Shown: piece by piece, positions 8,966 through 54,103 of the stretch
How positions within the stretch are numbered: the stretch's first letter is position 1
Layout of the letters: each line of letters opens with the position of its first letter
NCBI GenBank assembly: GCA_903858815.1
Contig: CAIOKE010000133.1
Location: 124,001-188,000, forward strand
Direction of reading: 5' to 3'
Length of the DNA: 64,000 nucleotides
DNA from: an uncultured Planctomycetaceae bacterium
GTDB taxonomy: Bacteria; Planctomycetota; Planctomycetia; Planctomycetales; Planctomycetaceae
Made by a program: the position numbers and the translations under genes
Notes under the pieces: generated by a model
What the model was told of the DNA's origin: nothing
What the model saw: only the letters and a program-made list of their open reading frames with translations
Database searches by the model: none

Positions 8966-8972
8966 CAGCAGG

Positions 8973-8977: not shown

Positions 8978-9181
8978 AGGCCACTTCAGGGTGCACGCGG
9001 GATCCGCCCGTTCAGCCAACGGTCTGCCGACTTCCCACCACATTGCTTCTACCGCAACAGTTACCCGAATGTCTACACAGAAGCCGAACCGACAACTGAA
9101 CGAGACTGCAGAATCCTCCATCCAGTGGGCTCTGACCAGCGGAAAACTGCAGAATCTGCCGCTGAACAGTCTCGGGATGCA

Positions 9182-10102: not shown

Positions 10103-10395
10103 CAATCACACTCCCCGTTTGCGTGCTTTTCTCAGTCCGTCGCTGCTTCCGATCGCATCGAACTGTTGCTTCTCTGCAACACGTCCAATCCTGAAATGCC
10201 GTATTTTTGACGCTGCTGATGCTCTTCTGAGCCTCGGCTGCATGATCCCGACAACCACTGAATCCCGCGTTTTTCGAAAGTTTGACGCACGATACCAAAT
10301 CCTGACGTATATCTTCGACAGCGAATCTTCAATCCTGCGAACAAAACGTAAAGCTGTGCGTTAAGAAATCACAGACTTTCCCCCGCGAGGTGGCC
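10103..10395. other. Divergent intergenic region between the toroid and TadE genes
   Basis: About 290 bases separating two divergent genes, so it must hold both promoters. I saw no convincing -35/-10 pair, hairpin or RNA gene. Confidence 0.4.
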
Positions 10396-10836: not shown

Positions 10837-10866
10837 TTGATTCCCGATTCTGCTGTATGGTTCGTC

Positions 10867-10870
10867 GGAG
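10867..10870 (+). promoter_or_regulatory. SD site deciding the TadG-like start
   Basis: GGAG eight bases before the ATG at 10879. It favours that ATG over the upstream TTG at 10837, which abuts the stop of the previous gene. Confidence 0.5.
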
Positions 10871-10878
10871 ATAGCAAC

Positions 10879-12105: not shown

Positions 12106-12137
12106 CAGAAGCTCAATAAATCGACAGGAGACGCGAC

Positions 12138-12530
12138 ATGCTTCAAAGAATACAGTGTGCATATCACCACCCCCGCCGTGGTGCAGTCACGGTTGAATTC
12201 GCACTCGTGGTTCCTGTCATCCTGCTGCTGTTCTTTGCAGCCCTCGAACTGGCATCCATGAATTACGCCAGACACACCATCGGGTTCGCTGCCTACGAAG
12301 GAGCCCGGCGTGTGGCAATTCCAGGTGGCACTGCAGCCGATGCAACTGCTGAGGCCACAAGACAGATGCGGCTTGTAGGCCTCGGAAAGGATGCCGAAAT
12401 TACGGTCACTCAGACCGTCACACAAGTCACGGTCAATATCCGCCTGCCCTCCAGTGGCTTTTCGTGGAGTCCAGTGGGATTCTTTGCCAACTATGCCATT
12501 CGTGAGCGCTGCACGCTGCGGAAGGAATAA
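12138..12530 (+). CDS. TadE-like minor pilin/pseudopilin family protein
   Basis: A 130-residue protein with the TadE signature RRGAVTVEFALVVPVILLLFFAALE near the N-terminus and a small beta-rich remainder. The start ATG has AGGAG (12126-12130) seven bases upstream. It closes the three-gene Tad unit and resembles the first TadE in order of features (RRG, TVE, AAYEGAR versus AAYEAAK), so the two are probably paralogues. The downstream neighbour is convergent, 14 bases away. Confidence 0.82.
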   Translation: MLQRIQCAYHHPRRGAVTVEFALVVPVILLLFFAALELASMNYARHTIGFAAYEGARRVAIPGGTAADATAEATRQMRLVGLGKDAEITVTQTVTQVTVNIRLPSSGFSWSPVGFFANYAIRERCTLRKE

Positions 12531-12544
12531 TACCGTCAACCCGC

Positions 12545-25300: not shown

Positions 25301-26057
25301 GCCATGCCTCAGGGACTGGATAGTCGGCCGTCTCACCGGCCGTGTCAGCATACCGCACTACGTCCAGCCAGTGCCGCCCCCATTTCTCACCATAGGCAGA
25401 TCCTGCCAGCAGACGATCAATGACCTTCAGGAACGCATCCGGAGCACGATCCTGCTCAAAATCCTGCAACTCTTCGGGGGTCGGAGGCAACCCGGTCAGG
25501 TCAAAAGTCACACGCCGCAGCAGAGTACGTCGGTCAGCCTGCACTTTCGGCTGCAACCCGGCAGACCGCAAAGTACGCAGTACAAACGCATCAATTTCAT
25601 TCTGACACCACGGAGCATCCTGAGTGGGCACGATCGGATCGCCGATCGGCTGGAATGCCCAATGGCCGGCAGATTCAAAGACCCCCGCAGCCGCCGGCCA
25701 GTAAACACCTGCCGAAATCCAGTCGCGGATGGCCTGTACCTGCAGAACTGATAACGCCTGATCCTGGGCCGGGGGCATCGCTGAAACATCCGCCTGACGC
25801 AGGATAGCCTGCAAAAGCAGGCTTTTGCCTGGGTCACCAGGGATTATCGCCGGCCCGGAATCTCCACCCTCCAGCAATCCCTGCCGCGAATCCACCCGCA
25901 GGCCACCCGATACTCGCTCACCTCCATGGCAACGAAAACACGTCCCCGCAAGTATCGGTCGGATCTGAGCCTCAAAAAATGCCTCTGACTTCGCATCCTG
26001 CCCCATCGCCCGCTCAAGACCAGGCCACAGGATTATCAAAGCAAAAAAGAATCGCAT
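22356..26057 (-). CDS. DUF1549/DUF1553 planctomycete cytochrome protein with two inserted lectin-like modules
   Basis: A 1,233-residue exported protein. After a signal peptide (1-20) comes a haem motif CFRCH (residues 40-44) in a planctomycete cytochrome C domain, then DUF1549 (about 130-400; HWLDVVRYADTAGE), and a C-terminal DUF1553 (about 950-1200; NRVWQYHFGTGLVRTPNDFG, RRRLSAEEIRDSIL). Between them, residues about 423-622 and 655-852 form two similar beta-rich modules, each starting GDxELQ and ending PxLDIDNxAV, which look like concanavalin-type glycan-binding domains. The order with the DUF1501 gene immediately downstream is the usual pairing. A role in polysaccharide handling is inference. 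Confidence 0.88.
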   Translation of the reverse strand: MRFFFALIILWPGLERAMGQDAKSEAFFEAQIRPILAGTCFRCHGGERVSGGLRVDSRQGLLEGGDSGPAIIPGDPGKSLLLQAILRQADVSAMPPAQDQALSVLQVQAIRDWISAGVYWPAAAGVFESAGHWAFQPIGDPIVPTQDAPWCQNEIDAFVLRTLRSAGLQPKVQADRRTLLRRVTFDLTGLPPTPEELQDFEQDRAPDAFLKVIDRLLAGSAYGEKWGRHWLDVVRYADTAGETADYPVPEAWRYRNYVIDAFNRDLPFDQFVREQIAGDILAQQSDSARFAEQTTATGYLALSRRFGFDSENYHHLTIHDTIDSVGQTFLGLSLGCARCHDHKFDPVSTKEYYALYGIFDSSRYPFPGSEQKQRVRSLAPLVPPGQAAQGWRDHIRQTGDLAHRLTALQRAAPVAVLRSLSEPDGDFELQAPAAGGSNGIPVAPWLYSGPVMVTGEAQSPFQHVYPRGGRGLTVLQGTQDWRVWQALRIREKDRQTLWFGIDLRIRDEVADAVEGHQFQMVAAGSGRAVGFTVKQGLVSLQSGDKSVVLGKYRVGEWMTLQVELNPQTGRIEGKLSVDGEEQVAELQSDVWERLPDGMVFESFGSSGAVRPGLDIDNVAVQPVPFGRPVRDWVVAATTGESAAVISAKLKQLVGIDGDLELQSIDGPLSAPWNAGPGSVVRLRPESQSPLKNLYGAGGQGLYLPQRAAYDGFGLTMSELPIDAAGLLHLAFDFRPYPADTGCGSWRYYIGHGPGPSAAVELHFTDRVFFSRQSDGPVRVADLVPGEWHQLQLVLDTRNRTYKGVLFAPGQRTTFAGNCLESWDGQIDYSFIDSYGHLPGTRPALDIDNFAVRDTALPDISQISADVASELRGEQISVLRRRLLELQGQADQMDQELRGLLAHGPYPMAYAMAEGTPHDVRIQVRGEPDQPGELVARGFVRVVGGEVPEVPLTGSGRLQLADWLVSPRNPLTARVIVNRVWQYHFGTGLVRTPNDFGVRGAVPADPELLDYLAGRFVRDGWSIKSLHRLILSSAAWQQESSSTADDSKGIVCSRRRLSAEEIRDSILAVSGRLDRSMGAAHPFPRPFEWGFSQHVPFGETYDHRLRSVYLMTPRIRRHPFLALFDGADPNASTADRAGTTVPTQALFFMNDQMIHEASVEWAGRLQELAADDSERLRLAWRRAVLREPEAEELREAEEFMHVYASQAAVVDGSRKALEAVLRSLLGSNDFLYVD

Positions 26058-38965: not shown

Positions 38966-40150
38966 TCAGTCAGCCAACCGGATGCTGTAGACGTAGCGAT
39001 TCGAGGGAGTTGCATCGTCCGTTGCGGTCACTGCCATCCCAGTCACAAGCACACAGGGCTGAAATGTCAGTTGCAATGTCTCGCTGTCCGGACGTACTGC
39101 GTCGACCACGCGTACCGCAACCGGTCGCTGCAGGGACAACCCCGTCGACGACAGACGACTGCAGAGCATCAGCAGAACAGACTCCACACGACCATCCGCC
39201 AATTCCTCCTCAACCTCTCCCAACTGCTCAAGAGTCGGAGTGATCGAGGGAAAATCACAGGGAAAAGTCAATTCCCTCAGTCCCAGCGATTCAAGATCGG
39301 ACGATCGCAGCCCCTCCTGAATCTGTCGGTTCAACGGACGAACACTGGTCAAGTCACCTCCACTGAAATCCAGTAACACAAGTTCCTGCGGCTTTCCGGA
39401 GGGTTCCGTTGTAAGTTCCACCACGATCTCCGGAATTCCATCCGGCCCCTGCTCGAAGATCCTCATTTCCGGATTCCAGGCAACCTCATCCGCTCCTCCA
39501 CCCTGCTCCACCTGCGATGTCCACCAGCCAGCACCATTCAGACCTGGATCATCGCAGATCGAAAATGGCAGCATTGGCAGGGTCTGACCGGGTGCCGGAC
39601 GAAATGCAACCGGTCTATTCTCCAGACGAGCCGACGCTGCCGTCGTCACCGACGCGAGGTTCAACAGACTGCCAGCACGTCGGTAAACGCGAGCATCCGC
39701 GGCGGAATGTCGCACTCGGATGGCTGTCGGTATCGGAAAGCCCAACTCGTCCGCCGCATTTTCTGACTGCGACCAGACATACTCCACGTCCTCGGCGTTC
39801 AGAGCCGGCAGAGGTGTGCGTTCAGAGTACCACGCTGCCTGCTCTACTGCCGCTGCGGTGCACTGCGCCTCTCGACCATCCACCTCAAACTGCTGCCATG
39901 ACTGCCGCAATAAATCATCGGATACCCACTTGTAGGCAGCAGCCGCTGCAGACGACTCACAGCAGTTTCGGGCATGCTGCAGCAGCCCGGAAATCAGCCA
40001 CACGTCAAGCACGAGAAATGACGCGAGTCCGATGAAACCCAGCGCCATGACAGTCCACAATGAAAGAACGCCACGTCGCACCCGTACAGGAACTTCAGCT
40101 CCCGAGGCCTTCAGACTGCACTGTCCATCAACAGACTGCATCCTGAGCAT
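38966..40150 (-). CDS. TadG-like pilus assembly protein
   Basis: A 394-residue protein with the TadG N-terminal layout: basic RVRRG followed by VLSLWTVMALGFIGLASFLVLDVWLI, a membrane helix, then a large extracytoplasmic domain without a visible vWA metal motif. Helical region about 55-90 (AARNCC...AAAAAYKW) is followed by beta-rich sequence. The start ATG at 40150 has GGGGAG eight bases upstream; a longer frame exists. It is third in a minus-strand TadE-CpaB-TadG unit, so a role in Flp-type pilus assembly is likely. Unlike the 10-kb locus, the protein lacks DxSxS. Confidence 0.7.
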   Translation of the reverse strand: MLRMQSVDGQCSLKASGAEVPVRVRRGVLSLWTVMALGFIGLASFLVLDVWLISGLLQHARNCCESSAAAAAYKWVSDDLLRQSWQQFEVDGREAQCTAAAVEQAAWYSERTPLPALNAEDVEYVWSQSENAADELGFPIPTAIRVRHSAADARVYRRAGSLLNLASVTTAASARLENRPVAFRPAPGQTLPMLPFSICDDPGLNGAGWWTSQVEQGGGADEVAWNPEMRIFEQGPDGIPEIVVELTTEPSGKPQELVLLDFSGGDLTSVRPLNRQIQEGLRSSDLESLGLRELTFPCDFPSITPTLEQLGEVEEELADGRVESVLLMLCSRLSSTGLSLQRPVAVRVVDAVRPDSETLQLTFQPCVLVTGMAVTATDDATPSNRYVYSIRLAD

Positions 40151-40182
40151 GACTTTTCTCCCCTGACGACACTCTCTCAAAC

Positions 40183-41193
40183 CTATCGGGGCACCATACT
40201 GTCGTCAGGCAGCGTTCCCGCAAGGTCATCCAGTGTCAGGTCACTGTCATCAAGTTGTGTCGTCGATGGTCCCCGAATTGGTGTGCTGTTGGGAGCAGTC
40301 GGTGCCGGACGCTGACCAGAGGGATTGCCAAGTCTTGCACCATCCTGAAAATATCCGCTGTTGAAACTGGAGCCACGATACTGCTCAGTTCGAAATGGCT
40401 TGTTCTCCTCGCGCGCCATCGACTTGAGGCCGAGGATCTCCATGAAGAAGATTCGATCATCCTCACTGGCTTCGATACTGATCCCCCCCTGCCCTGGTCC
40501 GCTGTTGCTGTAGATCAGATCAACCTCACCCTTCTTCTGCGCCAGCAGAGCGATTCTTGACTGTTCCTCATCCAGTTCCAGAGTCACACTCTGGCCGGCC
40601 GAACGAGATCCACCCGATGCACGATTCACCTGAATCACCTTCACTCCACGAAACAGTGTCGCAGTCATCGCATCGCCCGACAGTGTATCGTTGCGCGGAT
40701 CCAGCCCGGCACGCCGCCGCGCTGCCGCTGAAACGTCGGCTTCGTCAACTGTCAACTGCACGTCAACATACTGACCAGGCTTCAGTTTGGCGTTCAACGC
40801 AGCGGTCGTTGGACTGACACGCACCACAACAGCACGCTTTCCATCTTCCACTTCCAGCTCGGGAAAGTCGCCCGGAGCATAAAACATTGAGCCACGCAAA
40901 GGCGTGGCCGCAGAGATCTTCTCCTTTGCGATGCGATTGACAATCGTATCGGAATTCAGAATCGTATCAGGCTCGAGGGACTTGGAACGATCCCACGGCC
41001 CAAGCCCAAGGTGTGCTCGAGTGATGGTGGTCCCAGGTTCAACATCGGACTGCAACATCGGGATCGTACGCGTGGTCCGCGCAGACTCCCGCATTTCCGG
41101 ACGCGCAAACACCACCTTCAGGAAATATCCCGAAGCCAGCGTACAAACAACGGCAAAGGTTGCGATCGTCAGCATCCACGGGGTGATCTTCAC
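40183..41193 (-). CDS. cpaB: CpaB/RcpC-like Flp pilus assembly protein
   Basis: A 336-residue protein. A membrane helix (about 7-28, MLTIATFAVVCTLASGYFLKVV) is followed by an SAF-type domain (about 45-120; SDVEPGTTITRAHLGLG, EKISAATPLRGSMFYAPGDFPELEVE) and a beta-rich domain (ALNAKLKPGQYVDVQLTVD, VTLELDEEQSRIALLAQKKGEVDLIY) typical of CpaB/RcpC. In Tad systems this protein helps to assemble the pilus across the periplasm. A Pro/Ser-rich tail follows. It sits 18 bases after the TadE gene and about 30 bases before the TadG-like gene. The rest of the Tad machine is absent from the window. Confidence 0.88.
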   Translation of the reverse strand: MKITPWMLTIATFAVVCTLASGYFLKVVFARPEMRESARTTRTIPMLQSDVEPGTTITRAHLGLGPWDRSKSLEPDTILNSDTIVNRIAKEKISAATPLRGSMFYAPGDFPELEVEDGKRAVVVRVSPTTAALNAKLKPGQYVDVQLTVDEADVSAAARRRAGLDPRNDTLSGDAMTATLFRGVKVIQVNRASGGSRSAGQSVTLELDEEQSRIALLAQKKGEVDLIYSNSGPGQGGISIEASEDDRIFFMEILGLKSMAREENKPFRTEQYRGSSFNSGYFQDGARLGNPSGQRPAPTAPNSTPIRGPSTTQLDDSDLTLDDLAGTLPDDSMVPR

Positions 41194-41211
41194 GGATGTC
41201 TCCTCAGTTCA

Positions 41212-41700
41212 TCAAAACACTTGCGATGCCGGTGCCACGGAATCCTCGGCTGTCAACTCGCTGTCTTCAGCAGCAATGGACTCCAGAGGTGCCACACGCT
41301 CCATGACCATTGCAGAACTTGCCTCAAGATACCGGCCAGACAGACTGAAACCCGTCATCCACAGCAGATCCGGACTGGCACTGGCCATCGGAACACGCAC
41401 ATGAACACGGCCAACCTGCCCAGCATACTCCGCCGGTTCCACCTCGATCTCACACTCAGACGCCAATGACAATCCCAGCAATTGGGAAATACTCTGCTGA
41501 ACCTCCGCCTCGCTGGCCCCACTCAGACTCATCAAACGTACGCCGGTCTGAGCAGCGGACGTGATTCGCGCGTGTGCCGCCATCAGCATTGAATACTGGG
41601 CAATGCCAAAGGTCAGCAGCAGAAAAATCGGCAGTACCAGCACCAGCTCCATCGATAGAATGGCGCCGCGACGGCCGAGCGAAACACGACCTGACTTCAT
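41212..41700 (-). CDS. TadE-like minor pilin/pseudopilin family protein
   Basis: A 162-residue protein with the TadE signature GRRGAILSMELVLVLPIFLLLT and following IAQYSMLMAAHARITSAAQTGVR. The start ATG at 41700 is chosen over a longer frame because family members begin shortly before the RRG. The remainder is a small beta-rich extracytoplasmic domain with an acidic C-terminus. It is first in the TadE-CpaB-TadG unit and the third TadE-like protein in this window. Confidence 0.8.
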   Translation of the reverse strand: MKSGRVSLGRRGAILSMELVLVLPIFLLLTFGIAQYSMLMAAHARITSAAQTGVRLMSLSGASEAEVQQSISQLLGLSLASECEIEVEPAEYAGQVGRVHVRVPMASASPDLLWMTGFSLSGRYLEASSAMVMERVAPLESIAAEDSELTAEDSVAPASQVF

Positions 41701-42029
41701 GAAATTCTCAAACCCTTCGTCATGATGCCCACAGCGATATTCACAGATCCCTGCTGTATCGGCAGTTTCGGCCGAATGACCCACTGCCAGACAACTTTTC
41801 TGCAGGTTTTCAGTCACACCAGACAGCAGAATTGGAGGGATTCACCATGTCGGCAACCCTAATCCGGCATTCAGCACTCGGGAACCTGCTCAATCGTCGC
41901 AGGAATGGCGGTCTGGATCGATCATTCCGATTATGACGACGCTCCCTTTTGGATACACTGCACCGTCATGTTGCTCAGCACCCCGAACATTCCCGCACAC
42001 CATCCAGGACCTGAAAGGACCAATCGTCC
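41701..42029. other. Divergent intergenic region between TadE and inositol monophosphatase genes
   Basis: About 330 bases that must hold promoters for both the minus-strand Tad unit and the plus-strand phosphatase gene. I saw no clear promoter boxes, RNA gene or repeat. Confidence 0.4.
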
Positions 42030-42803
42030 ATGTCGCACAAGGAATGGCTGACAGCGGCCATCGATGCCGCCGCACTCGCCGGAAATGTGCTCCTTAACTG
42101 GCAGGGGAAATTCTCCGTGCGCGAAAAAAGTCGAGCAAACCTTGTCACCGAGGCTGATGAGGCGTCTCAGACGGCCATCGTCAACAGGCTGCGAAGTCAG
42201 TTCCCCGATTACTCGTTCCTCGGCGAAGAAAATCTCAATGAGCGCGGCACGACGGAGGACACGGTCTGGATCATCGATCCACTCGACGGAACGTCCAACT
42301 ATGTCCACGGCTTCCCCTACTTCGCAGTCTCTATCGCTCTCATGCACAAAGGCCAGATTGAAGTTGGCGTTATCCTTGACCCCAACCGAAACGACGTCTT
42401 CGCTGCCAGTCGCGGCGATGGCGCCACTCTGAACGGAATACCGCTCCGCACCAGTGGAGAAACTCGCATGGAAAAAGCCTTTGGCATCGCCAGCCTGCCA
42501 ATCGCAGCAAATCCGGAAAACCCAGCTATCAACCGCTTCCTGAAAGCCATGCAGTCGCTCCAGACCGTGCAGCGAACCGGCTCGGCCGCACTGAATCTCG
42601 CCTACCTCGCTGCTGGCAGGATCGATGCTTTCTGGTCCAGCAGCCTCAATGTCTGGGATATCGCAGCAGGTGTGCTTTTGGTCACTGAATCTGGCGGAAC
42701 TGTCAGTGACCTCGACGGAAATCACCCTGACCTCTTCAAACCCAGCCTGCTCGCAGCCAGCTCGATGGAACTGCAAAAGAGCCTGACAATACTGTTCAAA
42801 TAG
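42030..42803 (+). CDS. Inositol-1-monophosphatase family protein
   Basis: A 257-residue magnesium-dependent phosphatase of the IMPase/SuhB family. Metal-site motifs: GEEN (Glu66, Glu67), DPLDGTSN (Asp83, Asp86) and WDIAAGVLLVTESGG near residue 210. Length matches the family. Natural substrates in bacteria include inositol phosphate, fructose-1,6-bisphosphate and 3'-phosphoadenosine phosphate (PAP). The last would link to the sulfotransferases at 60-62 kb, but they are 18 kb away and this is speculation. AAGGA lies about ten bases upstream of the ATG. Confidence 0.9.
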   Translation: MSHKEWLTAAIDAAALAGNVLLNWQGKFSVREKSRANLVTEADEASQTAIVNRLRSQFPDYSFLGEENLNERGTTEDTVWIIDPLDGTSNYVHGFPYFAVSIALMHKGQIEVGVILDPNRNDVFAASRGDGATLNGIPLRTSGETRMEKAFGIASLPIAANPENPAINRFLKAMQSLQTVQRTGSAALNLAYLAAGRIDAFWSSSLNVWDIAAGVLLVTESGGTVSDLDGNHPDLFKPSLLAASSMELQKSLTILFK

Positions 42804-42994
42804 CCAGCAACCCCGAACCGTAAAGTTTGGCAACTTCTCCCGCCCGGGTGATTTGCGTAAACTATACTGGCAGCAGACTGGCAGAATACGTACTTCGCAA
42901 CGTGGTCTGACAGTTCCCGATCCTGCTGGGATGGCTCGATCGGATCTCAGTTTCGGTGTCTGCGGCCTTCAAGGCTGCATTGGGGGTCCATTTT

Positions 42995-45900
42995 ATGGCT
43001 CGGCGACTTCCGAATATCGGCAGCGCCGCACGGTTGCTGGCTGTGATCAGTCTGTGGCTGATTGCAACACCATGCACCGCGCAGACTGAACCCGTTCAGT
43101 CACCGCCAGACATCCCTGCAGCGCAGACTCCTGCTGGCGTTCTTCCGGAAATCTCTGAGATTGTGATTCAGATGAAATCCGGCGAGCAGATTCCGCTTCG
43201 CAATCTGCTGGGTCCTGAAATCGCGGATCAACTTCTGCAGCGCGGGCTTGAACAACGTTCAGTTCCGGCATTCACTGTTGCTCAGACCGAAATCTCGGGG
43301 ACCGTCGAGCGGGACGTCGTCCGTCTGAATTTCCGGTTGCAGGTCCGGGTTCGCACTGAAGGCGAGTGGATTGCGGTTCCACTGTCATTTGGTGAACTTT
43401 TTCTGACAGAGTTTCGCCATGAGTCGCAGGCCCCGGGTGCCGAAGCAGTGTTGTCTGTGGGGGATCAGAATTCAAGAACGTGGCATCTGAAAGGGCGTGG
43501 CCTGCATACTCTGAATCTGCAGATGATCAGTCGCGCTCGTCCTGTACCGGGTGGTGGCTGGCAGCTGAATCTGACATTACCGCAGTCAACTGCTTCACAC
43601 GCTCGTCTGGATTTTGCTGTCCCTGTGGATCTGCAGCGTTTGCCGACCGATGCTGTCGCAGAGACAAAACGTGATGCAGTGGGCATCCGTGGTGTCGAGT
43701 TCTGGGGTTTATCGGGGCTGGTATCGCTCTCGTGGTCTGAAATTGCTCCACAGGTTGCAGTGAAACCGGTTGTGCAGTCTCAGACTCGCATCAAGCTGGA
43801 CCTGACCACCATTCCAGTCAGTCTGAATGGGACGCAATCGCTGCAGATCAGTGGTGGCTCATTATCAGAGGTCAGCGTGACCTATCCTCCGGGATTCGAA
43901 CTTCAGGAAGTGAGTGCTCGCAACTCTGCGAACGTCTCTGTTCTTAAGAACTATGAAGTCCTTTCAACCGAAGTTCCAACCCGGACTCTGATCCGTCTGA
44001 CTTCAGCAGTAGAAGGGCAATTGACACTCGGGTATGAGCTGGAGTTGAAGAACCCCGTTTTCCCACAGTCAATTCAGATCTCCTTACCGGCCATTCAGGA
44101 GGCCAATGTTCAGACTGGCGACCTCGATATTCTGATCCCGTCCGGACTTGTTGTGGAGCAATCGAAGGTCACGGGAGCACAGCGTCGTCGAGTTGCCTCG
44201 GATGCAGATACCAGCGTTGCTGCAACGGCATTCCGCCTCCGCTCGCCTGAATCGCGTATCCAGCTGGAAGTCAAGGAAACCGAAGCACAGTACGTATTCG
44301 AGGAAGAGTTGGAGTTACGACCGGAAAACAACTCCATCAGTCTGCTGATGCGATGGCGTGTCAACGTCCTGCGAGGATCGCTGCTGGAATTGCCCCTGCA
44401 GTGGCCCCGGACGATGCGTGAAATCTGGGGAACACTTCCCGGCGACCTTGTATTGCGCAGCAGCAATGAACAATCGGCTGTGATTGTTCGAGAGGTCGAG
44501 GGCCAGCCCGACCAGATGACGCTGGCATTTCCCGAGCGTCAGACCGGCGAATTTACCGTCGAAATGCGATGCCTTGCGAAACAGGAAGCTGCCGCTGACA
44601 CTGTTCTGAGTCTGCTCTGCCCACAGATCCGAGCTCGCTCAGGGCAACCGGTGGTGCTTCGACTGCTGGAATCTGACCAGAGTCGTATCGAAGTCACAGC
44701 CCCCGCGTCGGCTGACGATCTGACCGGAATTTCAGAGGACCCTTCTGAAACTCAGCCGGGAACCGCACAGCAACCTCGCAGCCTGCTGTATCGCAACCCT
44801 GATCAGCCCCTGCTGGTCTCACTGCGGCGACAGGATCCCGTTGTCGAAGCTGAAGTCGCAGCGGGGCTGACCCCTGTGGAAGCGGGTTTGGAGATTCGGC
44901 AGCAGATTCGCTTCCTGATTGATCACAAAGACCTGACTGAAGTCACGCTGTTCGTGCCGGAGCGAGTTCAACCAGTCGTCAGAATTGCCGGCAATCGCGA
45001 ACCGCTGCGTCCCGGGATCGGTCCGTCCGGAAAATGGACCTTTCGCCTGCCGCAGGCAGCACGAGGAGAACTCCTGCTGGAGGTCGGCTGGATCTGGACG
45101 GACCTGCAGTCTGCGGCCCCGGACTCCAACGGCCTGCAGCAACTGCCTCTGGTCATTCCGGCAGATTGCCTGATCCGCAGTATCCGAGCTCAGACGGCTT
45201 CGTGGAGTGGTTTGCTGGTTGCTGATCCCGCCCGCTGGGAACCGATCTTCTCCGATGTGTCGGATGCGGCATGGCATTGGCGCAGCGGCCAGACCGGATC
45301 TCCATCCGCTGCAATTCCATCGCTCGTCGCACAGAATCTTGCACTCCCGATTCGCCGCACAAAGTCTTCGACGTTTGCCGACAGCGAAAGCCCGCTGTTG
45401 ATTCTGGTTTCGTCCGAATTGCTTCCCGGACAATTACTGACCACCAGTCTTGCAGCCTGGGAGGATGTGCCATCAACGCTGTTTTTCCAGCTTGCTGACT
45501 CTCTGCAACTGGAGTCTGTACAGCTCGGAAATCAGCTGTTGACCGAAGCCAGTGCAGCACGAACTTCACTGCAGGCCATTCCGTCCACTGACGGACGATC
45601 AGTTCGCTGGCAGATCCTGCCGGCTGCTTTGCAGGCAGTTTCCGGACCTGCTGTTCTTGTCGTCAAGTGCCGGCAGATCATTCCCTCAGGCCCGGGTTTT
45701 TACCGTCAACTGGCTTTGCTGCGACCAGACTTTTCCACTGAAGAAGCCGCATTGCCGGTGGTCTGGAGCCTCTCAGCTGCCCCCGGGTCCCGCAGCATTC
45801 CGCTCAGCCGCGGATTCGAAACATTTAACCCTGGTTTATTATCTTTACTGCCATGGAGCCGCACAGCGAGCGAACAGCAGGTTGCTGATCTTACAACCGT

Positions 45901-46414
45901 CATTTCAACGTTTTCTCCAGCCATTCGCAGCGCTGTTGCTCCTCGGATTGCACAGATTCTGCCCCCCGGAAGAGCCACAGTACTGTGCCTCGGCAGCGCT
46001 GCGGCTCGCCAGCTGACAGTAATTGAGATCCCCCTCGCACTGCAGATTCTGGCAGCAGCGCCTGGTTGCGTGCTGATCTTTCTCTCCATGTCTCTGTTCC
46101 GTCGTATGTCCTTCCTGGTGCCACTCGTGATCACCCCCGCTCTCGCACTGACTGTTTGGGTTGCCCAGCCACTCTGGTCGTCTGTATTCCTGCCACCTGC
46201 AGTAGTCGGCCTGATCACCGGGCTTGTCATCGCCCAGTTGCAGCGAGTTCTCGGATCTCGTGGAAGCGTGGCCCATAGGCTCGCTCACGCCACGGAACTG
46301 CCATCGATTTTTGGCATACCGGATCTTGCCACCGCTGCCGTTCGGGAAAACCACGGAAGCAGCTTCAACAGCGCTGCACTCCAACCGGACGCCTCCTCAG
46401 GATCCTCGCGCTGA
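42995..46414 (+). CDS. Giant exported beta-rich protein with C-terminal membrane helices (unknown family)
   Basis: A 1,139-residue protein I do not recognise. Start ATG 42995 (MARRLPNIGSAARLLAVISL) gives a signal peptide ending near CTAQT. The body to about 1,000 is dense in beta strands with repeated V/L/T alternation and short hydrophobic motifs such as VPERVQPVVRIAG (about 652-664). Near the C-terminus (about 1,015-1,095) four to five hydrophobic helices end in IAQLQRVLGSRG. It ends one base before the next start, so the two are surely co-transcribed. A TATACT at 42863-42868 could be a -10 box, but no -35 was found at normal spacing. Function unknown. Confidence 0.75.
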   Translation: MARRLPNIGSAARLLAVISLWLIATPCTAQTEPVQSPPDIPAAQTPAGVLPEISEIVIQMKSGEQIPLRNLLGPEIADQLLQRGLEQRSVPAFTVAQTEISGTVERDVVRLNFRLQVRVRTEGEWIAVPLSFGELFLTEFRHESQAPGAEAVLSVGDQNSRTWHLKGRGLHTLNLQMISRARPVPGGGWQLNLTLPQSTASHARLDFAVPVDLQRLPTDAVAETKRDAVGIRGVEFWGLSGLVSLSWSEIAPQVAVKPVVQSQTRIKLDLTTIPVSLNGTQSLQISGGSLSEVSVTYPPGFELQEVSARNSANVSVLKNYEVLSTEVPTRTLIRLTSAVEGQLTLGYELELKNPVFPQSIQISLPAIQEANVQTGDLDILIPSGLVVEQSKVTGAQRRRVASDADTSVAATAFRLRSPESRIQLEVKETEAQYVFEEELELRPENNSISLLMRWRVNVLRGSLLELPLQWPRTMREIWGTLPGDLVLRSSNEQSAVIVREVEGQPDQMTLAFPERQTGEFTVEMRCLAKQEAAADTVLSLLCPQIRARSGQPVVLRLLESDQSRIEVTAPASADDLTGISEDPSETQPGTAQQPRSLLYRNPDQPLLVSLRRQDPVVEAEVAAGLTPVEAGLEIRQQIRFLIDHKDLTEVTLFVPERVQPVVRIAGNREPLRPGIGPSGKWTFRLPQAARGELLLEVGWIWTDLQSAAPDSNGLQQLPLVIPADCLIRSIRAQTASWSGLLVADPARWEPIFSDVSDAAWHWRSGQTGSPSAAIPSLVAQNLALPIRRTKSSTFADSESPLLILVSSELLPGQLLTTSLAAWEDVPSTLFFQLADSLQLESVQLGNQLLTEASAARTSLQAIPSTDGRSVRWQILPAALQAVSGPAVLVVKCRQIIPSGPGFYRQLALLRPDFSTEEAALPVVWSLSAAPGSRSIPLSRGFETFNPGLLSLLPWSRTASEQQVADLTTVISTFSPAIRSAVAPRIAQILPPGRATVLCLGSAAARQLTVIEIPLALQILAAAPGCVLIFLSMSLFRRMSFLVPLVITPALALTVWVAQPLWSSVFLPPAVVGLITGLVIAQLQRVLGSRGSVAHRLAHATELPSIFGIPDLATAAVRENHGSSFNSAALQPDASSGSSR

Positions 46415-46415
46415 C

Positions 46416-49400
46416 ATGACTGGAACGGCCTACATCCTGTTGTGCGCGCTGCTGATGCTGCAGGACGGAACCACGCAGGGGCCACAGTCTGCAGGCAGTC
46501 AGGCTGAACCACCGGAGACATCCAGAACGATTTCCACTGCTCCCCCCACCTCACCCAGTGATACCCCGGAAAAAATTCAGGATCTGATCACAACAGGGGA
46601 TTACGTTCCTCTCCCTCAGGCTGAGGTTGAGCGCCTGCAGAAACTCGCCCGACACTCCCGGCAACCAGAGTCACCGGCGATTCGAAAGGCAAGCTATCAG
46701 GCAGAGCTTCAGGGGCGGACCCTCAATGGTGGCACGCTGGAATATGACCTCTACAACACTGATACTGCATCTGCCCAGGGATTACTGCTCGGACGTACCA
46801 GCCTGCAGAAACTGCAACTGCGCGATCCTCGAGGCCCGCTGCCCATCGGAGCCGATCTCAGTCGAAGGTTATGCGTACTCAAACCAGGACTGACAGGGAA
46901 TATCACCGGTTCATGGACAGCTGATGGACTCGTTTCCGGAGATACCACGATCTTCCGTCTTGAGCTGCCAGCCAGTACGGCGACAAAACTCCAGTTGCGA
47001 ACACCCGCAGAAACTGAAGTCACAGGACTGGGTTGCCTTGTACTCGGACCACAGCCAGCAGACTCCGGACTGGTCTGGGAACTGCATGCCGCTGAACCCG
47101 CTCGCATCGCCTTCTCCTGTCGTCGTACCACCAGCCTGCAGACTTCAGAACCGCTGGCACTGACGGCATTCTCAGCCAGCCACGTCCTCAACGGAGACAT
47201 CATGTCATCCCGCTGGACAATCGGCCTGCCGCAGAACATTCGAGGCGTGACACTGCTGACAGCACAACTGAGTCCGAACACCCGGGTCACAGCCGTAAAA
47301 ACCGATGAAAATCGTTCCCTGCAGTGGGATGCCCGCCTCGCCCAGAACCAGCAGATCCTTGGAATTCAGCTTCCCGAATCCGGCAGTACCGGGTCACTCA
47401 CGATTTCTGCCGCATCCGTTATCCCGGATGCAGACCGGTGGGATCTGCCGGCACTTTCAATGCAGCGCTGGTTAAGCAGCTCAGAAATCCGCGGAGATCT
47501 GCTCAGCCCAACCGGCATCGTCAGCGTGTCGCTTCCAGCAACAGTGAACGTTGATAACTGGACCCTGTACGGAATGCAGGAGCGTGATGTCGTACCAGGA
47601 CCGGACCAGTCGAGAACCTACCAACTGACGCAGTTCAGTAGTACAGCAACAGCGACTATCCGAACTTCCACACGAGCCGCTGTGCTGTCAGACGCTGTTG
47701 CCACTGTGATGGAACCCGCTGGCCGACTGGCCGCTGTTCGGTGCTTCATCAATGTTACATGCACCGAAGCCGCAGTCATCGAACTGAAATGGCCGGTCTC
47801 ACCAGGCTGGCAGACAGTCGCGGCCCGCTACGCCTCCGACGCTCGTGCGCTTTACTTCGAACAACCCACCGCTGATGGCACGGATGCAGCCGCACTGAAT
47901 GCCGGCTCCATGCTGACGGTCCATCTGCCGGAAACGCTGGAACCGGACACATCGCGAGTCATTGAATTGCGGCTGCAGCAACTGGAGCATGCCGACCCTG
48001 CACGGCTGCAGCCACCGCTGTCAGTTGCCGCAGGTATTGAACGCACCTCTTCGTGGCTGCTGTATTCGCCGCGATCACAGACACAATCCCGCCTACCCGC
48101 CCGCTGGACGACAGGACAGCAGACTGCCTCCATCCCTGATTTCCTCGCAGATGCACCGTGGTTCCCAGCCAGCGGGCTGCCCGAAAACACGCTGTGCTTC
48201 TTCGCCGGTGATACACTCACGCAACCTGCTGCCGAAGTTCAGCCCGCAAAATGCAATGTCAAACATCAGATGCGGACTGATGGGGAAGGTGTCATTGTGG
48301 AAGACCTGCAGGTGGAATTCCCGGCCGCTGCCAACCGAACCTCTATGGTCATTCGCCTCGCTTCCGAGTTCGCCGACGAACTCAGCTGGAAAATCAATGG
48401 CGAGGCAGTCCTGCCCGCATGGCGAGCAGTTGCTGGTAATGAAAGTCTCTGGCGTGATGCTGTCTTTGCACTGCCGGTCGCTGAAGCGGAATCCACCCTG
48501 CGAATTAGTGGCTCAATTCGCCGAACCATCGCGGGCGAATTCATCGCGGCCATTCCATTCCTGCCCGAAGCAGAAGTGGCAGGCTCAGCTATGACGGTCC
48601 CGCGTTCAGATCTGAAGATTCTGCAGGTGGTGGGACTTGAAGAACACCCGGACTATATCAGTAATGAACAATACGCAGGCTGGACGCTGCCCGAACTGCC
48701 ACAGCCGATTGTCGTCCAACGACTGCGCCAGGAAATCGATGCAACAGCTCAGTCGGCCGACGTCGCCAACTATCACGTGATACGAGAGCGGGCAGGACTT
48801 GTTGAACACCAGATGCTGGCTGTTGTGGACGTTGCAGGGCGCAGCGGAGGAAGTCTGCAGATTGATGCTGACCGAACTCAGCCACATGTACTGGTAGATG
48901 GCCGTCGAGTCGCTGCAACGATCACCCCAACCGGACTGCAAATACCAATCCCCGACTCAAGGGATCGCTGTCGCATCGTGCTGGCATGGGAACCTGAACT
49001 TTGTCCAATTGAAAACATCCGCAGTCGCCTCGTGCTTTCCAGAGTCCGATCCGTCGATGGCACTGGCCTCCAGTTTGTCCACCACCTGCTGATTGCACCA
49101 GAACTCGAACCCGAATTACCCACCTCTGAGTTCCGTGTCGTCAAAGCTGCGACAGCCCCGGAACCCGTTGAACTTGTCTTCAGTGACAGTGAAGATGCTG
49201 CAAGCCCTGCGAACGCACAGACATCGCTCACTTCCGGGCCACACGCCACCACACTGCAGTTTCAACTGCTGTGGAAACTGACCCGCAGTCGCGACTGGAG
49301 CTACGCATGGCTTGTTCAACCCGCCGGAAATGGTTCTCTGCTGAAGCTTGAGGTGACTCAGAAACAACGCCGACAGATTGTTGCTGCCGGAATGGGTGTG

Positions 49401-52400
49401 GTCTTTTTCGGCCTGTGCTTGTCCTGTTCCGCGATGCTGCTGCGCAATCCACCGGCTGCTGCCCTGCCCGTCATACTGCTCTCGCTGGCCGGAATATTCG
49501 ATCTGCCTCCCGCCGTTCAGGCTGCACTGCAGGGAGCGTTCTGGGGTAATGCTGCAGGACTGCTGCTGATCATGTCGGCGCGAGGACTGGTCCGCTACTT
49601 ACGCAGCTTCAGCAGAACACCCGTGCTGAACAGCCTTGTCCTCGTGTTCGCCGTCCTGACTCAGTCCACATCTGCTCAGGAAACACCGAACCCTGGGCAG
49701 GGTCCCGCCACTGAAGCTGCCACCCTTCCTGACGACGCGGCGGTTCAAACACGACCTCAGAACTCGACGATGACCTGGATCCGGCGCAGCTATCTGCAAC
49801 AATTGCGGCAGCTGCAGAGCGAGCTTGCACCGGAGCCCTCGGCAATCATCCGCTCGGTTCGCGCACTGGTCACCGCCGAAACCACGGAATCCGTTCAGTT
49901 GGAACTGCAACTCAACGTCTCTGTACCCAGTGGCGACGAGGCCGCCGCACTCAGCCTGCCGATTCGTGGCGCTCGCTTCGTTGACTGCACAGTCGATGGT
50001 CAGCAGGTATTTCCGGATCCTGAGCTTCCCGAACAGATCTCAATCCCCATTCCAGCCTCTCGCGCAGTACCGCAGATCCCGATTGCCGTCACAGCTCCCA
50101 GTGGTCGTGCCGAGCCAGCTGATGAAGTTGCCGCATTCTCGGATCATGTTGTCATCTGCCGACTCCGGCCAACGACTGTGCGACAGCCGTCCGGATTACA
50201 GTTTCGCCTGCCGACACCACCAGGACCAGACTCCGAAATCAGAATCGAAACATCAAAGGGGCTGTTTTCAACAGCCCGCCTGCAGACCGCTGACGGTATT
50301 CTGAAATGGAATCCCGCAGACGGCCCTGTCCAGTTCAATGGACTGGCAGATGGTGACGGTATCGATGTCAGGCTGCTGCAAACAGATCTCGAGAACCGTG
50401 GCCCGAGCCCTGCCAATGTCGAAGTGATGACGGTCGCAGAAAACACGACCGGACTTCAGAACCTCAGCTGCTATTGTCGTTTCGTTGGCTGGAATCCGCT
50501 CAGTCCCGAAATCCGATACCACATCCCGGAAGGATTCCGCCTGCTCTCAGTTGCAGCCGCCGCTGGCCTCCAGAGCCCCGACCTGCTCTGGTCTGTGCAG
50601 AATCAGTCAGCAGTGATCACCCTCCCTCGCGCTGTCCCCGCTGATTTCATTCTGCACCTGCAGCTGCGATCAACACGAGCGATACCACTGCAACAGCAGG
50701 TGATCCCCACTCACCAGTTGAGCCAATTCGACGACTGCAAACCCGCAGATACGGGCATTCTGGCACTGCGAGCCAGTTCAATTTTTGCCCCCTACTCACC
50801 CGACCGCAGTGCCGCAACGCCGCTCAGCTTCGCTGACGTCTCAGCTCGCTGGGGCCCATGGCTCAGACGCTCCGACCTGATATTCGAAACAGCTAAAAGC
50901 ACGGAAAGTCTGCTCGTTACTGCTCCCGATCGCTCAGCCACCAACGAAGTCAGAATCCTGCAGGAATGCACGTTCGCAGAACAAAGCATGAACTGGAGTT
51001 GTCGGATGGACGTTGAAACCTCCACACTCGCTGTTTTTCGCCATCGAATCACAGTGCCTGAACAGGTCGTAGTCCGCAGGGTGGAAGTTTCTGCCGGTGA
51101 GGCCAATCGACTGGCCTCGTGGCATCGCCAGGGCAATTTCGTCATTCTACTGCTCCGCGAAGGTACTACCGGGCTGCATGCAATCACTCTCGAAGGCTCA
51201 CGGACTCTGCTCCCGGACGATTCGCAGATCCAACTGGCTGCCCCCACACTTGAAAACTCTCAAATCCTCGAATCATCGTTAATCCTGAATGATCAGTCCG
51301 GCAGCGGACTCGCCTTTTCCGATACCGGAGACTCCGTCTCAGATCCACCTGTCAAACCTGGTGATGCTCTGCAGAAAGGAGTCCCACTCAGACTTACGGT
51401 TGTCGGTGAAACTCGCCCGATACGTCTCACCAGACAATCCCCCGTGGATCCACTTGGTGCCGTGGCAGCGTGGTGGCTCCCTGATCGAATGCAGTTTGCC
51501 GTACGACTGTCACAGTGGCCTGCAGCGCTCGGTCCACTGGAAATGACATTCCCTGACAACACGGAATTCATCAGTGAACCGGCCGTCGTTCTGGATCGGG
51601 AAAAGCTGGCACTCCAGCGGGCCGAAGACCGATTCTTTCCAGACAGCGACGCTATCCGAACGCTGTTCGGGAATTCTGAATTCACGGTTCTCTGGAGCCT
51701 GCCACTGCCGGACAGAAAGGCTGCTTCCAACACGCAGCCATACAGCCTCAACTGGCCTTTGATCTCCGATCGAATTCTGTGGACCGATTTGTTCGTATTC
51801 AATGGGTCAACAGAAAGCCGGTCAGTAGAGAGTCGCATGCCCTCATGGGCCACAGAAATCGACAGAACTCTGCTCACAGCACCAGCGGCACGCAGTGCCG
51901 AATCGGCAGGTCGATTTGATGCCGCAGCACTGATTGCAGGCAACCGTATTCAACTGCCAGTCGCAGCAGCACCAGCAGACCCGGACTCAGCCCCCGGAAA
52001 CAGCCTCGTCGCAGTCTCTGCAACCGTCATATCGGCAATTCCCGGACAGTCTCCGGCAGCAGAAACAGAATACCTCGTTTTCAGTCGGACGGCACCCTTC
52101 GCCTGTATTCTGGAAATCCCGGACAACGTGGCGATTACCGAACTGCCAAACGGTGTCGAAGTCAACTGGGAAGATGCAACTCGCCGACGCCTGATCGTCA
52201 ACTCCACCACAAATCTGACGCAGATCAGGCTCCGTTGGCTGGGACGACTGGCCCCGGAACACCCAGGACAATCCAGAATCCAGTTCACTGTGCCCTTTGT
52301 ACGAAACAGTCAGCAGCGACAGCATCTCTGGATCGTTTCGCCACTTCGTGAGATGCCCTCAACGGCACCCACAGTCGAAACCCTGACCAGTGAACAGCAA

Positions 52401-52850
52401 CAAGCGTTGCTTGAGCAGGACCTTCGTACAGGCATCAGCCTGCTCTCACGAAACGCGTCATTCCGACCGGATCAGAATGTGGCCACAACAGAACTACTTT
52501 CCGGGTCCCTTGCTGAGTCTGTTTCCCTTTTTCTGAATCGTAAAACCACAGATGCCGGACAACGCACCATTCGATTGCACAGAACAGTCACAGACCCTGT
52601 CACGATTTCCTTTCGCAGACACCTCGAACTGACCACCATCATCCCGATCGGTGTTGCCATGTTCGTCATGGTGCTGGCTGTAATGTCCTCCAGCGCCACT
52701 GTCCGCGCCGATCACGTCCTCACAACGGTCGTCACTGTGGATAAGTCAGTACTCAGAGTCACCGCAGGACAAATGGAAGCCACATACTCAGATGCCTCCG
52801 CCGCCGTACCTGAACGGTCTTCCACAGGTCCCGGAAACGTCAGAAACTGA
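46416..52850 (+). CDS. Giant two-unit exported beta-rich membrane protein (unknown family)
   Basis: A 2,144-residue protein. Unit A (1 to about 1,065) begins with a short hydrophobic leader (MTGTAYILLCALLML), continues as beta-rich sequence and ends in hydrophobic helices (about 985-1,050). A second leader-like segment TPVLNSLVLVFAVLTQSTSA (about 1,068-1,087) with an AxA-type site then opens unit B, again beta-rich, with VPEQVVVRRVEVSAG (about 1,545) and one membrane helix near the end (about 2,071-2,096). Halves of 1,065 and 1,079 residues match the 1,139 of the upstream protein, so the pair looks like three copies of one architecture, two fused. It overlaps the next convergent gene by 11 bases. 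Confidence 0.8.
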   Translation: MTGTAYILLCALLMLQDGTTQGPQSAGSQAEPPETSRTISTAPPTSPSDTPEKIQDLITTGDYVPLPQAEVERLQKLARHSRQPESPAIRKASYQAELQGRTLNGGTLEYDLYNTDTASAQGLLLGRTSLQKLQLRDPRGPLPIGADLSRRLCVLKPGLTGNITGSWTADGLVSGDTTIFRLELPASTATKLQLRTPAETEVTGLGCLVLGPQPADSGLVWELHAAEPARIAFSCRRTTSLQTSEPLALTAFSASHVLNGDIMSSRWTIGLPQNIRGVTLLTAQLSPNTRVTAVKTDENRSLQWDARLAQNQQILGIQLPESGSTGSLTISAASVIPDADRWDLPALSMQRWLSSSEIRGDLLSPTGIVSVSLPATVNVDNWTLYGMQERDVVPGPDQSRTYQLTQFSSTATATIRTSTRAAVLSDAVATVMEPAGRLAAVRCFINVTCTEAAVIELKWPVSPGWQTVAARYASDARALYFEQPTADGTDAAALNAGSMLTVHLPETLEPDTSRVIELRLQQLEHADPARLQPPLSVAAGIERTSSWLLYSPRSQTQSRLPARWTTGQQTASIPDFLADAPWFPASGLPENTLCFFAGDTLTQPAAEVQPAKCNVKHQMRTDGEGVIVEDLQVEFPAAANRTSMVIRLASEFADELSWKINGEAVLPAWRAVAGNESLWRDAVFALPVAEAESTLRISGSIRRTIAGEFIAAIPFLPEAEVAGSAMTVPRSDLKILQVVGLEEHPDYISNEQYAGWTLPELPQPIVVQRLRQEIDATAQSADVANYHVIRERAGLVEHQMLAVVDVAGRSGGSLQIDADRTQPHVLVDGRRVAATITPTGLQIPIPDSRDRCRIVLAWEPELCPIENIRSRLVLSRVRSVDGTGLQFVHHLLIAPELEPELPTSEFRVVKAATAPEPVELVFSDSEDAASPANAQTSLTSGPHATTLQFQLLWKLTRSRDWSYAWLVQPAGNGSLLKLEVTQKQRRQIVAAGMGVVFFGLCLSCSAMLLRNPPAAALPVILLSLAGIFDLPPAVQAALQGAFWGNAAGLLLIMSARGLVRYLRSFSRTPVLNSLVLVFAVLTQSTSAQETPNPGQGPATEAATLPDDAAVQTRPQNSTMTWIRRSYLQQLRQLQSELAPEPSAIIRSVRALVTAETTESVQLELQLNVSVPSGDEAAALSLPIRGARFVDCTVDGQQVFPDPELPEQISIPIPASRAVPQIPIAVTAPSGRAEPADEVAAFSDHVVICRLRPTTVRQPSGLQFRLPTPPGPDSEIRIETSKGLFSTARLQTADGILKWNPADGPVQFNGLADGDGIDVRLLQTDLENRGPSPANVEVMTVAENTTGLQNLSCYCRFVGWNPLSPEIRYHIPEGFRLLSVAAAAGLQSPDLLWSVQNQSAVITLPRAVPADFILHLQLRSTRAIPLQQQVIPTHQLSQFDDCKPADTGILALRASSIFAPYSPDRSAATPLSFADVSARWGPWLRRSDLIFETAKSTESLLVTAPDRSATNEVRILQECTFAEQSMNWSCRMDVETSTLAVFRHRITVPEQVVVRRVEVSAGEANRLASWHRQGNFVILLLREGTTGLHAITLEGSRTLLPDDSQIQLAAPTLENSQILESSLILNDQSGSGLAFSDTGDSVSDPPVKPGDALQKGVPLRLTVVGETRPIRLTRQSPVDPLGAVAAWWLPDRMQFAVRLSQWPAALGPLEMTFPDNTEFISEPAVVLDREKLALQRAEDRFFPDSDAIRTLFGNSEFTVLWSLPLPDRKAASNTQPYSLNWPLISDRILWTDLFVFNGSTESRSVESRMPSWATEIDRTLLTAPAARSAESAGRFDAAALIAGNRIQLPVAAAPADPDSAPGNSLVAVSATVISAIPGQSPAAETEYLVFSRTAPFACILEIPDNVAITELPNGVEVNWEDATRRRLIVNSTTNLTQIRLRWLGRLAPEHPGQSRIQFTVPFVRNSQQRQHLWIVSPLREMPSTAPTVETLTSEQQQALLEQDLRTGISLLSRNASFRPDQNVATTELLSGSLAESVSLFLNRKTTDAGQRTIRLHRTVTDPVTISFRRHLELTTIIPIGVAMFVMVLAVMSSSATVRADHVLTTVVTVDKSVLRVTAGQMEATYSDASAAVPERSSTGPGNVRN
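49618..49689 (+). other. Internal second signal-peptide-like segment inside the giant gene
   Basis: Codes for residues about 1,068-1,091: TPVLNSLVLVFAVLTQSTSA then QETP. It has a hydrophobic core and a TSA-QE cleavage-like end, as expected if two separate exported proteins fused. No start codon with an SD site was found here that would make it a separate gene. Confidence 0.5.
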
Positions 52851-53874
52851 TCCCGGCACGCAGCATCCACGTACTGTCCAGTGGCGTGTCCTCGGTGCTG
52901 TCCTGCCATGCAAATGAACGATCGAAGACAAGACCGCATTCCATAAATGCCGATCGATTCTCTGGCAGCAGGTTCTCAAGCCCAAGCATCAGTCGCAGAT
53001 CCCGAATCGTCAGTTGATCATTCACACCCGAGGCTCTCTGGACTGACCACGTATTTCCACCAAACACACCCGACAGATACCCCCACAACTCACTGCTCTG
53101 GCCATCCTTCGCCAGACGACACGAGATTCTGGGGGAAGGAAACTGGATATCAACCTTCAACTCCGATGTCGGAGTCCAGAGCAGACCAGCAGCCGGCAGC
53201 ACAGGAAAATCGTCTCGCCCCGTGTATACGACACCTCCGGACAGTGACAACTTGTCCGGAATTGTCTGCCACGTCAGCAATCCCAGACCAAACAACCGAA
53301 ACGCACTGTCACTGTTCTGAAAATCTGTCCTGACACCGGGAGTAACAATGGCCATTGAACTCAGACGATCGGTCAGCGACGTTCTCCAGAGCCCCCGCAC
53401 TCCCGTCTCATAGACTTCTGATGGCAGGTCAAAAATCGCCGCTGCGTTCAGAAAATCCACACGAAACAACGGTGTCAGCAGCAGAATGTTCTCGTAACTT
53501 CCCAGTGGCACAGCAAACGTGGAAGAGACATCCAGCCCTCCGATAGCCAGACCCGTACTGGAATCATCATGTATGTAGCTGCTGATGAAAGTTGCCCCCT
53601 GCCAGCAGCCCTGACGACCACGTGAAATTGGCAACTCACCACAGACATCCGCACACCCCGCATCAGGAGCATCACTGAAAAGTTCTGCCGGCTCTGTGAT
53701 CGGACGGTTGAACTCCATTTCCGACATCTGATCGGCTGCCGGAACGCTTTCAGATTCACTGATCAATGGCTCCTCGGGAACCAGCGTCGTTGGCAGCCAC
53801 TCTTCATCCGCTGCCAGACTTCCCACACAAAGACCGGAGGCCAGAAAACCTGCGATAAATCGCTCCCATCGCAT
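52840..53874 (-). CDS. Exported beta-rich (barrel-like) protein, intact relative of the broken 26-kb gene
   Basis: A 344-residue protein with signal peptide MRWERFIAGFLASGLCVGSLAA, an acidic spacer (about 25-75), and a strand-rich domain from 85 to the end. Markers are RDDFPVLPAAGLLW, VDIQFPSPRISCRL, GGNTWSVQ and the ending WMLRAGISF, which suggest a family of planctomycete outer-membrane-like proteins that I recognise by pattern but cannot name. The start at 53874 is uncertain; the frame also opens at 53889 and further upstream. The terminal aromatic residue fits an outer-membrane beta-barrel. It is convergent with the giant gene. Confidence 0.72.
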   Translation of the reverse strand: MRWERFIAGFLASGLCVGSLAADEEWLPTTLVPEEPLISESESVPAADQMSEMEFNRPITEPAELFSDAPDAGCADVCGELPISRGRQGCWQGATFISSYIHDDSSTGLAIGGLDVSSTFAVPLGSYENILLLTPLFRVDFLNAAAIFDLPSEVYETGVRGLWRTSLTDRLSSMAIVTPGVRTDFQNSDSAFRLFGLGLLTWQTIPDKLSLSGGVVYTGRDDFPVLPAAGLLWTPTSELKVDIQFPSPRISCRLAKDGQSSELWGYLSGVFGGNTWSVQRASGVNDQLTIRDLRLMLGLENLLPENRSAFMECGLVFDRSFAWQDSTEDTPLDSTWMLRAGISF

Positions 53875-54103
53875 CAATCCTGTCCCCATGGCTCCCCCGC
53901 TGATCTCACCCCACGGATGGCAGCCTGCCACCCGCCGCACGGACCTCTGCCGGCGCAAAAAGTTCCCCCGCTGGTGTCTTCGGCATTCTCGCGACATTCT
54001 TCCGAAAACGAATCACTCGAACTTTAGCGCCAAACGGAACCATCACGTCAGTCTGTTCACTATCGGCAGGAACTGCCACTTCATGGTCTGCTGCCAGCCA
54101 CGA

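Follow-up and report, generated by a model that had tools for sequence, protein, structure and literature searches.

Two adjoining giant genes of an uncultured Planctomycetaceae bacterium, U1 and AB, encode three homologous units, one in U1 and two (A and B) in AB. They lie on the forward strand of contig CAIOKE010000133.1 (assembly GCA_903858815.1), within a 64,000-nucleotide stretch that we analysed as a whole and refer to as the window. U1 runs from an ATG at 42995 to a TGA at 46412-46414 and encodes 1139 residues, and AB (46416-52850; ATG at 46416; 2144 residues) is separated from the U1 stop by a single base, a layout that the first-pass annotation had given correctly and that suggests co-transcription of the two genes. 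Earlier in-frame starts are possible at GTG 42956 for U1 and TTG 46224 for AB. In our judgement, the chances are evenly balanced that U1, A and B are ancient paralogous envelope subunits that form a periplasmic scaffold, with AB cut in two. The homology of the units, their internal repeats, the fold match of four of their domains, the conserved gene order, the loci with three separate genes and the signal-peptide-like junction within AB are computed results; the topology, cleavage, co-assembly and scaffold role in this reading are inferred.

Profile-profile comparison with hhalign relates all three units, with P-values of 1e-24 for U1-A, 1.2e-28 for U1-B and 4.6e-17 for A-B, and the alignments are collinear across 953-986 columns. 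On match columns the real scores were 151-250. Shuffled match columns reached no more than 43 when moved in blocks and 24 when moved singly (60 shuffles of each kind), and reversed profiles scored 36 or less. In distant relatives, the U1 profile matches both halves of the second protein (9.9e-50 and 2.3e-24 at locus L152; 1.3e-22 and 3.6e-28 at locus L155). Judged by these profiles, the homology of U1, A and B extends over their full length, and the evidence from homology and linkage is independent of the trees and of the L144 junction row described below. The units also repeat internally. With repeat-domain boundaries set by the U1 fold matches, P is 7e-12 for U1 D2-D3, 1.4e-8 for U1 D3-D4, 7.6e-9 for A D2-D3 and 1.9e-5 for B D2-D3, and by this comparison each unit is a row of related domains. 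The first-pass annotation had pointed to a local match between VPERVQPVVRIAG (U1 654) and VPEQVVVRRVEVSAG (AB 1547, or 488 counted within B). The two places are not equivalent: the match joins U1 D4 to B D3, and therefore reflects internal repeats rather than the register of the units.

To describe the fold, we used two structure models, one of U1 from a 21-sequence alignment (predicted local distance difference test score, pLDDT, 75.7; predicted template modelling score, pTM, 0.37) and one of AB 240-1330, which covers A from D2 onward plus B D1, from 18 sequences (pLDDT 75.7, pTM 0.33). The modelled bodies are beta-rich, as had been proposed from the letters. In Foldseek searches, oligosaccharyltransferase chains top both lists, with E-values of 5.6e-10 for U1 and 3.8e-7 for the AB part; chains such as 6s7o_E, 6ezn_A and 6c26_1 we take, partly by their length, to be ribophorin I/Ost1. 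Both lists also contain integrins, at poorer E-values than the top matches; integrin-alpha-like beta stalks are a further candidate for a shared fold. In the VIA comparisons, U1 reaches Z 13.0 to an oligosaccharyltransferase chain across two domains, at a root-mean-square deviation (rmsd) of 19 that reflects differently placed domains. Against single N-domains of M1 peptidases, U1 gives Z 11.2-11.5 and rmsd 3.3-4.9 on D1-D3. These domains are D1 (residues 91-249, 43265-43741; 3cia_B, Z 11.2, rmsd 3.3 over 147 residues), D2 (257-427, 43763-44275; 3qnf_C, Z 11.5, rmsd 3.8 over 159 residues) and D3, a sequence repeat of D2 (430-611, 44282-44827; one row, 6m8p_A, Z 11.3, rmsd 4.9 over 162 residues). 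Domain D2 of unit A (AB 243-418, 47142-47669) matches 6c26_1 at Z 13.3 and rmsd 2.9 over 162 residues, and leukotriene A4 hydrolase at Z of about 12-13. For B D1, the succession of strands in the model is similar by eye, and no listed VIA row covers this domain alone.

According to the models, U1 D1-D3 and A D2 have the 'saddle' beta fold of the M1 aminopeptidase N-domain, set in tandem as in Ost1/ribophorin I. The shared fold shows no function. The three units, which the first-pass annotation had taken to be one architecture, have one origin by profiles and one fold for U1 and A D2, with a like fold predicted for B mainly from homology. The first-pass annotation recognised no named domain, and the family libraries agree, but the fold itself is recognisable as the M1 N-domain type. 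At an E-value of 1, neither U1 nor AB had a match in Pfam or NCBIfam, a Pfam scan of 24 U1 members gave TgpA_N in two and otherwise nothing, and the Pfam matches of six distant members all fell under the curated cut-offs. Sequence searches of solved structures returned weak matches only, with no oligosaccharyltransferase or M1 peptidase among them. The family is therefore nameless in both libraries searched, and the literature searches, which cover an open library and the terms used, listed no account of it as judged by titles and abstract openings. Searches with U1 as the only query, AB not being sought there, found no relatives among the viral contigs and plasmids searched.

The resemblance to Ost1 and to peptidase M1 is one of fold. 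In Ost1, as PMC7226087 describes it, two beta domains that resemble each other lie in the lumen, and one helix crosses the membrane. Like Ost1/ribophorin I, the units would be exported, membrane-anchored proteins with tandem M1N-like domains (by fold only, in U1 90-463 and A D2, and with the membrane side predicted). Unlike Ost1, they have at least three repeats per unit and occur here as three units, and U1 and A end in several helices, with a single helix only in B. For the ribophorin I family (PF04597), a search of the window's genome at an E-value of 10 came back empty, as did the Pfam scans of U1, AB and the 24 U1 members. STT3 (PF02516) has no match in the window's genome and was found in two of 40 genomes at an E-value of 0.001, one of them above the cut-off. 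By these tests, and given the several helices of U1 and A, we rejected membership in the ribophorin I family. The likeness to the peptidase M1 N-domain (PF17900) covers U1 D1-D3 and A D2 (Z 11-13, rmsd about 3.3-4.9, about 150-160 residues). Neither HExxH nor GxMEN occurs in U1 or AB, and membership in peptidase family M1 was rejected because HExxH is absent. A PF17900 search of the window's genome gave only a chance-level match, elsewhere than in U1 or AB. Two open reading frames (ORFs) of relatives, 1211-1212 residues long and with weak PF17900 matches, were set aside as not belonging to the family, since the giant-pair profiles do not match them. Separately, Peptidase_M1_N scores above its cut-off in none of the 18 same-genus genomes, the window's own included, versus eight of 14 control genomes.

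Hydropathy places the putative membrane segments of the three units. U1, which the ORF and model depict as an exported beta-repeat protein (42995-46414), has an N-terminal hydrophobic stretch at 11-29 and a C-terminal cluster at 1007-1087 (46013-46255) that is also helical in the model. Residues 1-29 (42995-43081) make a predicted signal peptide with a likely site at A29/Q30; among 12 aligned members Q30 is invariant and A29 nearly so, and a motif x-x-[AG]Q follows the N-terminal hydrophobic stretch in 27 of 29 U1-size ORFs. AB, assigned to units A and B from its ORF and by profile homology, has a cluster at 986-1059 (49371-49592), where hydropathy and the model put the helices closing unit A, another stretch at 1069-1084 and a lone segment at 2069-2098 (52620-52709), the single C-terminal membrane segment of B. 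These positions agree with the earlier claim that the first two units close with several helices and the last with one. The accompanying claim of leader-like starts fits U1; the 'leader' of B is the internal stretch, and that of A is short and was missed by a 19-residue hydropathy scan.

What is new here is that the A-B junction retains a stretch that resembles a signal peptide and ends in [A/G]-Q. After the membrane helices of A, AB continues with a basic loop, the hydrophobic stretch 1069-1084 and TSAQ. By hydropathy and motif, AB 1069-1087 (49620-49676) resembles an internal signal peptide with predicted cleavage at A1087/Q1088, which would leave AB 1088-2144 plus the stop (49677-52850) as the mature part of B, recognised by its homology to U1. 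Across the family, 27 of 38 junction rows have x-x-[AG]Q after the hydrophobic stretch that comes last in the middle of the protein, versus 18 of 167 other membrane-like segments and 210 of 1900 random windows (Fisher P 1.6e-13, which is overstated because the rows are related). The fused AB gene may still yield two proteins, and we infer from the junction that it does. At two loci the three units are separate genes, of 1128, 1237 and 1138 residues at L139 and 1202, 1419 and 1470 residues at L140. By eye, gene 3 has a hydrophobic leader-like start at both, and at L139 it ends in one hydrophobic stretch. By eye, the genes at these loci also have in common a motif close behind the leader, made up of (V/I)PY/F and RG(V/I)-L, which looks reduced at the N-termini of the window's units.

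The pair is widespread and its order is conserved. At an E-value of 0.001, single-sequence searches found U1 in 31 and AB in 24 of 59 related genomes, and both in all 18 genomes of the same genus, the window's own included. With the U1-family profile, 110 of 148 genomes of the class and 83 of 246 of the phylum contain a member, both lower bounds because only three or four candidates were scored per genome. Among 53 loci picked for matching U1 or AB, a few genomes giving two, in 49 one family ORF precedes another on the same strand, the two either overlapping or lying no more than 150 bases apart, which bears out the linkage expected of a conserved system. Neither of the refuting outcomes named by the first-pass annotation, unrelated folds or unlinked homologues, was thus seen in the units modelled and the loci examined. 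In 12 loci the overlap is 4 bases, with starts taken as the first possible. The loci without a linked pair are L088, L090 (at an edge), L093 and L153; L088 has a U1-type ORF of 1096 residues with no recognised partner adjoining. The window's own genome holds a second pair, L138 (1199 + 2696 residues), which shares the one-plus-two-unit layout and the homologous units and differs in its longer second protein and its neighbours; this pair lies at 2222-13905, and an ABC-2 permease and ABC ATPase are encoded next to it. At locus L144, three successive ORFs of one strand belong to the family (1210, 2714 and at least 1186 residues), so that this locus probably holds four or more units.

In trees built for 11 loci, whose second proteins were divided into halves manually (labels G155 and G085 denote loci L155 and L085), the 33 units sort largely by position. 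IQ-TREE does so for 33 of 33, joining A with the gene-2 units and B with the gene-3 units and leaving U1 and the gene-1 units as the remainder, and each of the ten listed splits with support of at least 80 holds a single position. FastTree keeps the 11 B units together and mixes U1 and A at depth. Neither tree places a unit as sister to another from its own locus, and every subclade with members from several genomes contains a single position. Because the units group by position across genomes, the three-unit set predates the divergence of these genomes. IQ-TREE and FastTree disagree on U1 versus A, and the trees do not fix the branching order of U1, A and B. We favour a later fusion of A and B over a splitting of the gene at L139 and L140. 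Growth by duplication and fusion, as suggested at first sight, fits both the three-gene loci and the trees.

These observations lead us to the following model. Each unit would be exported by a signal peptide and would fold into a row of 'saddle' domains of about 160-180 residues. The C-terminal helices, several in U1 and A and one in B, would anchor each unit in the cytoplasmic membrane with its body in the periplasm. Planctomycetes are described as diderm in PMC10632474, and in a diderm bacterium helical anchors suggest a periplasmic body rather than the extracellular one first envisaged. In the AB precursor, the last helix of A would leave the chain in the cytoplasm, and the retained signal peptide of B would re-export it. 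Signal peptidase would cut near A1087/Q1088, giving three proteins from two genes. U1, A and B would assemble as a long periplasmic scaffold, with saddle domains that bind other proteins beside the membrane. A precursor of this kind has a parallel in FbcH of Bradyrhizobium, a cytochrome b/c1 precursor that is cut at an internal signal peptide. Like FbcH, AB would be two membrane proteins in one chain with a predicted internal signal peptide; unlike FbcH, its proteins are unrelated to cytochrome b/c1 and its cleavage is a prediction.

Several of our own results weigh against this model. With pTM values of 0.37 and 0.33, the structure models do not fix the arrangement of the domains; B is modelled in its first domain only, and its fold rests mainly on homology. 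Profile-profile comparison with M1 N-domains (11 planctomycete sequences) was not significant, with probabilities of 33% for A D2, 28% for A D3 and less than 9% for the other segments. At the junction, strict AxA occurs in 15 of 38 rows compared with 51 of 179 other segments, which is not clearly distinct, and the [AG]Q motif was picked after the AxA rows had been viewed. Eleven of the 38 rows lack [AG]Q, one (L144, minus strand) is not a family protein, and in some rows (for example L074 and L092) the segment was taken past the junction. At L140, the product of gene 3 seems to close with several helices rather than one. The deep IQ-TREE nodes are weak (39 for A and 65 for B), and FastTree joins three U1 units to six A units (0.952) and four A units to eight U1 units (0.866). 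Single-sequence hidden Markov model searches within the close family rarely cross units (three of 164 tests). Around 20 type-2 pairs (about 1200 + 2700 residues), no other family recurs in more than five of 44 stretches (20 upstream, 20 downstream and four whole loci), and no conserved neighbour hints at function; the pair may thus be self-sufficient.

The alternative to cleavage is that AB stays one chain, in which the junction is an uncleaved extra membrane helix and A and B form a covalent pair beside U1. We regard this as possible but rather unlikely. The second ORF is one long frame in most of the 53 loci, and the junction rows without [AG]Q and the unremarkable count of strict AxA fit an uncut protein; the motif in the majority of rows and the separate genes at L139 and L140 speak for two proteins. 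If, instead, the likeness of the units came from convergent beta sandwiches of similar composition, hhalign would have misled us, as it can: one of five block shuffles of the raw, gap-rich B alignment scored 149-150 against both U1 and A. This did not recur on match columns, where the shuffles stay far below the real scores, and together with the collinear alignments and the bridges found by HMMER in distant relatives it leaves convergence with almost no credence.

The remaining alternatives concern what the units do. Since both models match oligosaccharyltransferase chains best and a PMT-type glycosyltransferase adjoins one member (L142), the units might work like ribophorin I, as a bacterial glycosylation accessory that keeps freshly exported proteins close to a glycosyltransferase of the membrane. 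This is very improbable given that the window's genome has neither STT3 nor PF04597 matches and that STT3 is so rare in the 40 genomes. We are nearly as doubtful of a bacterial counterpart, perhaps a relative, of eukaryotic Ost1, in the form of a three-subunit periplasmic machine encoded by two genes, with a signal-peptidase-cut precursor and tandem ribophorin-I-like domains; PMC4973528 reports that profile searches gave no promising prokaryotic candidates for the non-catalytic oligosaccharyltransferase subunits. Degenerate aminopeptidases that have lost their catalytic half would account for the M1 N-domain fold, and yet the row of several N-domain-like repeats, the missing HExxH and GxMEN and the lack of any peptidase family in the Pfam scans make this a most improbable origin. 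It is likewise unlikely, to about the same low degree as the Ost1 counterpart, that the pair is part of the divergent Tad/Flp pilus system that adjoins it. CpaB-type genes (family F3) and TadE-type genes (F5) lie upstream here and occur in 22 and 19, respectively, of 62 loci that include some duplicate contigs, but they are not seen beside many other type-1 pairs within the stretches examined, and no such family recurs beside type-2 pairs.

These very large proteins are widespread in a phylum with unusual envelope biology and have no entry in Pfam or NCBIfam. Tandem saddle domains are known mainly from a eukaryotic glycosylation subunit, and the models would place this architecture in bacteria. 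AB is also a suitable example on which to test whether signal peptidase divides bacterial precursors at an internal signal. A genome-wide transposon study of Planctopirus limnophila exists (PMC10632474), and essentiality could be read from its data if that species carries the pair.

The neighbours of the pair were annotated in part. The nearest upstream is an inositol monophosphatase family gene (42030-42803, forward strand), 191 bases from U1. It is a candidate member of the system, and its family (F1) occurs in 35 of the 62 loci, duplicate contigs included. The gene lies under a longer antisense ORF (41931-42833) and was masked in the window's own neighbour count. Beyond it, the divergent CpaB-like and TadE-like Tad/Flp pilus genes occupy 38966-41817 on the reverse strand, beside a 404-residue ORF without a family match; related sets adjoin the giant pair in several relatives. 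Farther away, a PSCyt1/PSCyt2/PSD1 protein of 1233 residues is encoded at 22356-26057 (reverse strand) and is not matched by the giant-pair profiles. On the other side, a DUF6268 gene (52840-53997, reverse strand) shares 11 bases with the 3' end of AB, and its family occurs in 14 of 62 loci.

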